DNA of 64,000 nt, from positions 932,185 through 996,184 of the forward strand of contig NZ_JH584241.1 in the NCBI RefSeq assembly GCF_000241485.1, given 5' to 3'. The position numbers and the translations under genes were made by a program. The notes under the pieces are model-generated. The model ran no database searches. It saw nothing but the letters and a program-made list of their open reading frames with translations, and had not been told where the DNA came from. This DNA is from Sphingomonas sp. PAMC 26605. GTDB taxonomy: Bacteria; Pseudomonadota; Alphaproteobacteria; Sphingomonadales; Sphingomonadaceae. Positions within the stretch are counted from its first letter, which is position 1. Every line of letters begins with the position of its first letter. This document shows positions 8,706 to 52,178 of the stretch, piece by piece.

Positions 8706-8731
8706 CTCCCCTCCCGCAAGCGGGAGGGGAG
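8706..8731. repeat. Short perfect hairpin repeat between kduI and kduD
   Basis: A 12-bp perfect stem with an AA loop (arms CTCCCCTCCCGC and GCGGGAGGGGAG) fills the short gap between kduI and kduD. The same hairpin core occurs inside bchB at 33308-33329, and a diverged form occurs inside bchY at 53831-53855, so it is a mobile or recurring small palindrome and not a gene-specific terminator. Confidence 0.8.
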
Positions 8732-31938: not shown

Positions 31939-31978
31939 GCGGCGCCCGCGCCCGCGCTTCCGGCCTCCGGTGGCTGCC

Positions 31979-33364
31979 ATGCAGCTGACCGTCTGGACCT
32001 ATGAAGGCCCGCCGCATGTCGGCGCGATGCGCATCGCGACCGCGATGGAAGGCGTGCATTATGTCCTCCACGCGCCGCAGGGCGACACCTATGCCGATCT
32101 GCTGTTCACGATGATCGAGCGCCGCGGCAAGCGCCCGCCGGTCACCTACACGACCTTCCAGGCGCGCGATCTCGGCAAGGATACCGCCGCGCTGTTCCAG
32201 ACCGCGGTGCGCGACGCGGTCGAGCGATTCGCGCCGCAAGCGCTGCTGGTCGGGGCGTCGTGCACCGCCGAGCTGATCCAGGACGATCCGGCCGGGCTCG
32301 CCTCTGCGCTGCGGCTGCCGATCCCGGTGATCGCGCTCGAACTGCCGAGCTATCAGCGCAAGGAGAATTGGGGCGCGGCAGAGACCTTCTATCAGTTGGT
32401 CCGCGCACTCTGCCCCGTAGCGAAAGCGGACGCGCGGCCTGCGCCGGCGCGCAAGACCGCGAACATCCTCGGGCCGACCGCGCTCGGCTTCCGGCACCGC
32501 GACGACGTGGTCGAGATCAGCCGCTTGCTCGAAACGCTCGGGATCGGCGTGAATGTCGTCGCCCCCTTGGGCGCGACCCCCGCCGATCTCGCGCGGCTCC
32601 CCGACGCCGATTTCAACATCTGCCTCTATCCCGAGATCGCCGATACCGCCTGTCGCTGGCTCGAACGCACCCATGGGCAGAAGACGGTACGCACCGTCCC
32701 GATCGGCCACGGCGCGACGCGCGACTTTATCGCCGAGGTCGCTGCGCTCGCCGGAGTCGACCCCGCCGCCGCGCTCGACACGTCGCGCCTGCCATGGTGG
32801 AGCCGGTCGGTCGATTCGACCTATCTCACCGGCAAGCGCGTCTTCATCTTCGGCGATGCGACGCATGCCGTCGCCGCGGCGCGCGTCGCGCGCGACGAGT
32901 TCGGTTTCGAAGTGGTCGGGCTCGGCTGCTACAATCGTGAATTCGCGCGCGACATCCGCACCGCCGCCGCGCTCTACGGGCTCGAGCCGCTGATCACCGA
33001 CGACTATCTCGAAGTCGAGGACGCGATCGCCAGGCTGCAACCCGAGCTCGTGCTCGGCACGCAGATGGAGCGGCACATCGCCAAGCGACTGCGGATGCCG
33101 TGCGCGGTGATCTCGGCGCCGGTCCACGTCCAGGATTTCCCCGCCCGCTACAGCCCGCAAATGGGGTTCGAGGGCGCGAACGTGTTGTTCGACACCTGGG
33201 TGCACCCGCTGGTGATGGGGCTCGAGGAACATCTGCTGACGATGTTCCGCGACGATTTCGAGTTTTCGGATGCCGCGGGCGCGAGCCATCTGGGACACTC
33301 TTCTGCCCCCCTCCCGCAAGCGGGAGGGGAGATTGGAGTGCCGAAGCCGAGCGCGAGCTGCTGA
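31979..33364 (+). CDS. bchB: Light-independent protochlorophyllide reductase subunit B, C-terminus frameshifted
   Basis: NB-component partner of BchN. From [20 protein letters not shown] the frame gives 461 residues. Asp36 (HAPQGD), the unusual fourth ligand of the NB cluster, is present, and Asp279 in WWSRSVDS matches the catalytic Asp274 of Rhodobacter. Sequence agrees with the family to about GASH (residue 437). A short GC hairpin follows, after which this frame reads out of register and stops at 33362. The usual C-terminal domain is encoded intact one frame away (33334-33486). A 6-C run lies at the junction; one extra base would restore a full-length protein of about 502 residues. Whether the gene is active is open. 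Confidence 0.9.
33308..33329. repeat. Short hairpin repeat inside bchB
   Basis: A 10-bp perfect stem (CCCCTCCCGC / GCGGGAGGGG) with an AA loop sits in the bchB linker. It is preceded by C residues making a 6-C run (33306-33311). The same hairpin lies between kduI and kduD at 8706-8731. It coincides exactly with the frame change in bchB. Confidence 0.85.
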
Positions 33365-33475
33365 AGATCCCGTTCTTCGTGCGCGGCAAGGCGCGCCGCA
33401 ACACCGAGCGCTATGCCACCGAGCAGGGCATCGCCGCGATCACGCTCGACACGCTGTACGACGCGAAGGCGCATT

Positions 33476-33486
<11 letters not shown>
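33334..33486 (+). pseudogene. bchB: Detached C-terminal domain of BchB (frame -1 relative to the main part)
   Basis: In this frame the sequence reads [20 protein letters not shown] and continues through [15 protein letters not shown] to [10 protein letters not shown] and a stop at 33484-33486. That is the complete C-terminal domain typical of BchB/ChlB, so it has stayed intact although it is out of frame with the catalytic part. No good ribosome site or start for independent translation is obvious near it. Its stop overlaps the bchH start by 11 bases, the usual kind of coupling, which suggests that ribosomes once (or still) read through to here. Confidence 0.85.
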
Positions 33487-38097
<4,611 letters not shown>

Positions 38098-50732: not shown

Positions 50733-52178
50733 TCACCCGCCGCGGCTTTCGGTGATGGCGTGCGCGAGACGTACCGGCGACACCGACGCTTCGCCGGCGC
50801 GGCGCGCGCCGCGTTCGGCGGCATCGCGGATCCGCTTCGCGGCGGAGATGCGGACCAATACGGGCTCGCGCTCGACCACTTCATCGAACGCCGCCTTGGC
50901 GGCATCGTCCCACGCGACCTCGCGCTCGATCCGCGCGGGCGTCGCCTCGACCGCATCGAGCTGCCCGGCGAGCGGCAGGATGTGGAAGAGCGCGTCGAAC
51001 AGCGCGTTGCACACTTCCTGGATGAGATAGGTCGCGCCGGCATAGCCCATGAACGGCGTGCCAATGTGGCGGCGGATCACCGCGCCGGGGAAGCTCGCCG
51101 GGATATAGACACCGCGCGCGCCGGCCTCGGCCATGTACATCCGCTCGTTGAAGCTGCCGAACACGATCAGCGGCGGGTTGGCGCGGATCGCGTCGATCAC
51201 TGCGTGATTGTCGGGCTTGATCCCGGCCGAGCGCGCGAAGGCGAAGTGGCACGGCAGCCCCATATCGCCTTCGAGGAACGCGCGGATGCCTCTCGCATAG
51301 GTTTCGGTCGCGACGATACCGAAGCTTGCGGTACCGAAGAAATCCTGCGTGACCGAGCGCCACAGATCCCACAGCGGCTTGATCGTGGTGTGCTTCTCGC
51401 GCTCGATGAACGGCTCCGGATCGAGTCCGAGCAATTCGCCGAGCTTGCGGAGAAAGAGCGTGGTGCTTTCGAGGCCGATCGGCGCCTGGAGGTAAGGCCG
51501 CTCGAGCGCTTCGCACAGCCCCCGGCCGAATTCGCGATACAGGCAGACATTGACCTGCGCGTCCGCGAGCTTGCGGACATCGGCGAGATGGCTGCCCAAT
51601 GGGAAGACCATGCCGATTTCGGCGCCGATCCCTTCGATCAGACGGCGGATCTCGGCGAGATCGGACGGCATGTTGAAGCAACCATACATCGGGCCGATCA
51701 GATTGACCTTGGGGCGCTCCCCCTCCTTGAGCGGGCGCAGCGCGGGCACTTTCTTCGGGCCGAACTGCGTCCACAGCCAGGTCAGCGCGCGGTCGCCCGA
51801 CTGCCACTGATCCTCGTCGATCGTGCGCGGCAGGAAACGCTGGATGTTGGTGCCCTCGGGCGTGACGCCGCCGCCGATCATCTCGGCGATCGATCCGGTC
51901 ACGACGACCGCGGGCAGATCGGGGTCGAGCGCCGCCCAGGCGCGCTTCATCGCGCCCTCGGTGCCGTCGCGGCCGAGTTCCTGTTCGCCGAGCCCCGTGA
52001 CGACGATCGGCAATTCGTGCGGCGGGAGCGCATCGGTATAGTGCAGGACCGAGGTGACGGGCAGGTTTTCGCAGCCGACCGGGCCGTCGATGATCACCTG
52101 CAATCCCTTGATCGCGGTGAAGGCGTAGACCGCACCCCAATAGCCGCCGGCGCGATCATGATCGAGGATGAGCGTCAT
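50733..52178 (-). CDS. bchZ: Chlorophyllide a reductase subunit Z
   Basis: 481-residue NifK-like subunit of the enzyme that reduces ring B. It begins [20 protein letters not shown], then [21 protein letters not shown] with a cluster-ligating Cys, and [20 protein letters not shown]. The start is chosen on the family N-terminus; the upstream frame enters a palindromic repeat. It is separated from bchY by 160 bases holding that repeat. Confidence 0.95.

Follow-up and report, generated by a model that had tools for sequence, protein, structure and literature searches.

The bchB locus and its change of frame

The stretch of DNA analyzed here, a window of 64,000 nucleotides from Sphingomonas sp. 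PAMC 26605 (genome G000, contig NZ_JH584241.1), carries a bchB gene that is read in two frames as assembled (Table 1). Its upstream part starts with ATG at 31979 (alternatively with GTG at 31970), has codons beginning at positions equal to 2 mod 3, is recognized by Pfam as PF00148 (Oxidored_nitro, E 7.3e-85) and runs out at TGA 33362-33364. The C-terminal domain of BchB, recognized as PF08369 (PCP_red, E 3.6e-21), is out of this frame: its codons begin at positions equal to 1 mod 3 and lead, uninterrupted by a stop, from W (33334) to TAG (33484-33486), overlapping the start of bchH at ATG 33476. In the in-frame relative G032 both domains are found by Pfam within a single protein. No ATG, GTG or TTG that could serve as a separate start of the domain occurs in its frame from the palindrome to PCP_red.

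The two parts meet at a perfect 10-bp inverted repeat with arms 33308-33317 and 33320-33329 and a 2-nt loop. Thus the original prediction, which placed the split of bchB exactly at a palindrome, assigned these phases to its two sides and described a domain lacking stops and decay with an end overlapping bchH, agrees with the locus. It also spoke of a 10-bp hairpin preceded by six C; both the hairpin and the six C are present, but four of these C lie inside the stem, so that the run overlaps the hairpin instead of preceding it. If the split were true, a phototroph would have lost, or would recode, an enzyme subunit that it seems to need. A second BchB-like protein with PCP_red was considered as a candidate and rejected, the only other PCP_red match of the genome being the end of a 581-aa ORF on the minus strand of the window (50763-50912, 32.8 bits, barely above the cut-off), which we take to be BchZ.

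Table 1. Features of the bchB region and the second copy of the palindrome, in coordinates of the window
Feature	Position	Strand	Basis
bchB as assembled: PF00148 catalytic part, then out-of-frame tail	31979..33364	+	ORF reading, Pfam
Six-C run (also six in in-frame G032 and in G243)	33306..33311	+	
REP-like palindrome CCCCTCCCGC AA GCGGGAGGGG	33308..33329	.	inverted-repeat search, phase reading
PCP_red domain (PF08369), C-terminal part of BchB, frame 1, ending with TAG	33334..33486	+	Pfam
bchH, start overlapping the bchB end, in the frame of the upstream bchB part	33476..37195	+	
Second copy of the palindrome, likewise a tail-less single	8710..8727	.	

Palindromic repeats in the BchB linker of related genomes

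With a BchB cut-off of E <= 1e-100, the protein was found in 41 of 295 genomes of the genus and in 78 of 397 genomes drawn from the family, three being common to both samples, which gives 116 genomes in which the linker was read. It is in frame in 112, split in two (G000 and G243) and cut by a contig end in two others (G570 and G546), which leaves 112 in-frame cases among 114 evaluable genomes; relatives therefore do not normally end BchB ahead of its C-terminal domain, an arrangement that the original prediction had named as grounds for its dismissal. In another collection of 80 named loci, with species partly overlapping, 79 were in frame and one (L104) was cut by a contig end.

Linker length varied from 17 to 79 residues among the loci measured, the shortest belonging to G266 (= L031). 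In many sphingomonads the linker is built of inverted repeats read in frame, with arms of 13-27 nt. For G049, G105, G225, G054, G117, G213, G047, G180, G154 and G396, none of the 100 single-base shuffles made for each matched such arms. Chance alone would give arms as long as those seen in many other genomes. One family of linker repeats, with the core CTCCCGCNNGCGGGAG, is dispersed within the same genomes, and another, CTCCCCGGCACGGGGAG, gives 45 matches in G225, including two within the BchB linker. Palindromic repeats have repeatedly entered the BchB linker in frame, and they belong to more than one family. This is a real phenomenon, though a modest case of a known kind (repeats in coding sequence), and the suggestion that the repeat moved into the linker is borne out by the entry of such repeats in many relatives.

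Further repeat-like linker peptides, of the RHPGPVPGSTVP, LPGTGRGT...GGGG and SEVE types, were noticed in L005, L007, L020, L022, L023 and L207; one such family was tested and is dispersed. A second loop of BchB, near residue 155, bears in-frame inserts resembling another repeat (PAQAGAQ or PAKAGAQ ... GPRPSPG) in L048, L049 and L050 (= G117, G213 and G243), and BchB of G000 is devoid of this insert.

The dispersed palindrome and its inverted pairs

The core CTCCCGCNNGCGGGAG occurs in 75 copies in the genome of PAMC 26605, and the same pattern read backwards in none. Within the window alone, allowing up to three mismatches, two matches are found, which is not above the shuffles (mean 2.78), and both are exact; the second (Table 1) confirms the predicted presence of the same palindrome elsewhere in the window, at a site that the original prediction placed between kduI and kduD. 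Among the 50 cores listed of the 75, 24 form 12 inverted pairs with members 76-96 bp apart. Each paired palindrome bears a G-rich tail (for example, GGGGCTGGGGGTGGGC or its complement) and the two tails face inwards, an arrangement that could fold into a single long hairpin.

Cores were present in 16 of the 17 genomes searched. By its many dispersed near-identical copies and its inverted pairs the palindrome is REP-like. A transposase of the RAYT type (Y1_Tnp, PF01797) was found in none of three genomes (G000, G243 and G032), the control giving hits in 5 of 14, and the repeat is for this reason called REP-like and not a RAYT-linked REP.

Phases of paired palindromes and the nature of the frame change

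Core matches with three or four mismatches, many of which are due to chance, were set aside in the analysis of phases. In G032, G056, G047 and G396 the in-frame linker contains a complete pair, each core having one mismatch or none, and in all four the left core is read in phase 0 and the right one in phase 1. The spacing between cores is 82, 79, 79 and 79 bp, respectively, each value being 1 mod 3, so that merging of the two cores must shift the frame by one. The single core of the window, like that of G243, has phase 0 when read from upstream and phase 1 when read from the domain, and in the window no inner tail adjoins it on either side. As far as the letters can tell, it exactly fits a merged pair, to which the left palindrome would have contributed its outer left side and the right palindrome its outer right side.

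This bears directly on the proposal that one extra C would restore the protein. A single base, missed in base calling or lost by mutation, would indeed join both frames, leaving a short linker with a length near that of the shortest one measured (17 residues in G266). However, six C are present in three assemblies (G000, G243 and G032), and G032 (L009), having the same GCCCCCCTCCCGC, is in frame with an identical run; besides, a missing C leaves the left and right phases unexplained. A one-base error in the C run was therefore rejected, its probability being next to nothing, and phase variation at this run found no positive evidence. What sets this gene apart from an intact one is most plausibly the absence of sequence between two palindromes and not of a C, the phases agreeing with a loss of 3k+1 bp (in relatives, 79 or 82 bp).

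Another way to reconcile a real split with a complete protein is slippage by -1, either of the ribosome or during transcription, at the C run and the hairpin. The hairpin is predicted to be stable (-32.3 kcal/mol, z -2.67, with 6 of 200 shuffles as good), and endosymbionts are known to correct the frame by slippage on poly(A) runs (PMC5009743). Nevertheless, the codons GCC CCC CTC make no tandem slippery heptamer and would permit the slip of a single tRNA only, the run is short, consists of C and lies mostly within the stem, and its presence in in-frame G032 means that it predates the shift. No positive evidence thus emerged for ribosomal slippage on the C run, which had been among the proposed options, and full-length BchB produced in this way from a real split appears very improbable.

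A second genome with the same split

The draft genome G243 (L050) has the same split, the same single palindrome and six C as G000, which at first argued against an error. In the tree of bchN, bchB, bchH and bchL, G000 clusters with G048 and G049 (support 95), both having other linkers that are in frame, and G000 and G243 were not joined in any of the four single-gene trees; simple shared descent of the lesion was therefore rejected. With regard to a possible local exchange, the flanks of G000 and G243 are identical to 0.917 over 60 nt on each side, which is the highest value for this pair on the 5′ side only, G032 reaching 0.95 on the 3′ side. A serine codon AGT following W occurs in G000, G243 and G032 only (3 of 114 scored loci; 11 others have AGC), making it likely that these three share an allele with the pair.

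Deletion between direct copies flanking a hairpin is a well-known type of event. It may be supposed that the two palindromes, as 22-bp direct copies flanking the hairpin, recombined or slipped in the living cell with the loss of PCP_red, an event that would be recent, probably harmful and tolerable in heterotrophic culture. Such a deletion yields the same sequence and the same phases, and the rare AGT codon of G000, G243 and G032 looks as if derived from one pair allele. The same state of G243, which is not a sister of G000, also speaks for it, as the event could have happened twice; a real collapse could equally have arisen once and spread. Moreover, a solved BchB chain without PCP_red exists, as judged from the part of the entry available (9efu, 419 aa). 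On the other hand, the domain is in frame in all 112 other evaluable genomes, an LPOR that could replace the enzyme exceeded the cut-off in none of nine close genomes, and the domain itself is undecayed. Between G000 and G243 it differs at 14 sites distributed over codon positions as 2/0/12 (p = 8e-5 against even positions; dN 0.027, dS 0.39). Real loss of the domain is thus rather unlikely, though well ahead of slippage.

The same bias has a further consequence. With a split both real and old, the 12 third-position differences of 14 would require translation of the domain in the shifted frame, which would favor slippage; if the split is not real, they are the plain pattern of an intact gene, which is equally expected to conserve the domain. 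The combined picture, in which the single palindrome is true in two Sphingomonas lineages, slippage at a REP within the coding sequence preserves full-length BchB and PCP_red is selected in the shifted frame, seems to us scarcely credible; were it true, it would represent a mobile repeat carrying its own frame correction. No stop closes the shifted bchB frame of G243, which is read on in frame into bchH (an open frame of 1829 aa), so that a collapse, if real there, predicts a BchB-BchH fusion.

Probable merging of the palindromes during assembly

The split is probably a product of genome assembly, in which two palindromes of an inverted pair were merged, and is itself most likely not a real feature. 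According to this explanation, the bchB linker of PAMC 26605 would hold an in-frame inverted REP-like pair, as seen in relatives. Short reads would fail within the long hairpin that the pair may form, and two contig ends bearing the identical 22-bp palindrome would be merged into one copy, with removal of 3k+1 bases that shifts the frame on paper only. The living strain would then have BchB of full length. The options put forward originally included an error in a GC hairpin, which corresponds to this likely course of events.

Traces of such difficulties are visible elsewhere in the assembly. Inside six other pairs of G000 there are N runs of 20, 36, 665, 740, 751 and 867. At the run of 751 (C1 769382, L254) the flanking contig ends overlap by 33 nt and at the run of 740 (C1 2697762, L251) by 40 nt, which implies that the contigs ended inside the hairpin. 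The gaps at these two pairs are, by the same token, wrongly sized. Contig ends fall into the same BchB linker in three other drafts (L104, G570 and G546).

Of the 50 cores listed for G000, 26 are isolated, and nine of these are tail-less singles that look merged, both palindromes of the window included. In contiguous genomes (1-2 contigs) only 2 of the 39 isolated cores retrieved look merged (p = 0.003): 0 of 12 in G047, 1 of 10 in G396, 1 of 9 in G177 and 0 of 8 in G054. Within the genus the comparison is 9 of 26 (listed cores of G000) versus 1 of 29 (p = 0.003). The rarity of such singles in contiguous genomes argues against real deletion as well. Draft G048 has 4 merged-looking cores among 16 isolated ones (50 of its 61 cores being listed; p = 0.05 versus contiguous genomes), and draft G243 has 2 among 13 cores, one pair being left out; these two drafts are intermediate or similar.

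Flank classes were assigned by script and afterwards by eye. In G000 the cores 788187, 931502 (an N run hides the tail), 2698624 (a tail seen by eye) and the CCCT-variant pair 2999349/2999445 were not counted as merged despite the script's no-tail call, while core 235242 of G048 was counted as merged-looking on visual inspection, although the script had classed it otherwise. G031, itself containing an N run, was excluded (1 of 10 isolated cores retrieved, CCCT variants not being counted). For G054, eight isolated cores were retrieved from those listed; 25 cores were listed in G177 and 64 in G047, and the paired cores of G047, G177 and G396 were taken from the listing.

Several observations count against assembly collapse: 12 pairs are assembled intact in G000 (among the 50 listed cores), the window contains no N, and tail-less singles exist in contiguous genomes too (2 of 39). 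The relation of the split to fragmentation (0 of 35 genomes with up to three contigs, 2 of 79 others, p = 0.48) is not significant and alone says little. Assembly collapse is nonetheless favored, given that G000 and G243 are not sisters, that N runs lie in six pairs and that merged-looking singles are in excess; from this excess in the draft we infer that the single palindrome of bchB was merged in silico as well.

Implications and comparison with known systems

As the evidence points to a merged pair, an annotation of this genome as one without full-length BchB would be unwarranted. A lone palindrome devoid of an inner tail, with a change of frame across it, is a signature by which further false frameshifts can be flagged in drafts from this family. 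What appears new, if modest, is a single protein linker that palindromic repeats, drawn from more than one family, have rebuilt repeatedly with the frame kept, which makes the BchB linker a natural test bed for repeats turning into coding sequence. A literature search returned, among the papers listed, no description of such repeats in sphingomonad proteins or in the BchB linker, nothing on assembly gaps at hairpins and nothing relevant on PCP_red, the available part of PMC7948495 being silent on this domain.

REP sequences and REP dimers, some of them inside genes, are described in the available part of PMC3733652, where "Sphingo" is absent from the text. The repeat studied here resembles them as a short GC-rich palindrome with a copy number in the tens, frequently paired in inverted orientation and in some cases within ORFs. 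It differs in that no RAYT-type transposase (PF01797) was found in G000, G243 and G032. The REPs of that source bear GTAG/CGTC tags, and the likeness concerns palindromes and pairing. Rickettsia palindromic elements, of which several families are inserted in frame into protein genes (PMC10969869, in the part available), provide another parallel, being likewise palindromic repeats of several families accommodated in coding frames. However, these elements are about 150 bp long and reside in many unrelated genes, whereas here one linker of one protein is affected in many lineages. With corrective frameshifting or slippage, as presented in the accessible text of PMC5009743, the locus has in common a single-base run and a stable hairpin at the change of frame, but the run consists of C instead of the long poly(A) of endosymbionts and tandem slippery codons are absent. 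A merged repeat pair explains the frame change in bchB better than corrective slippage does.
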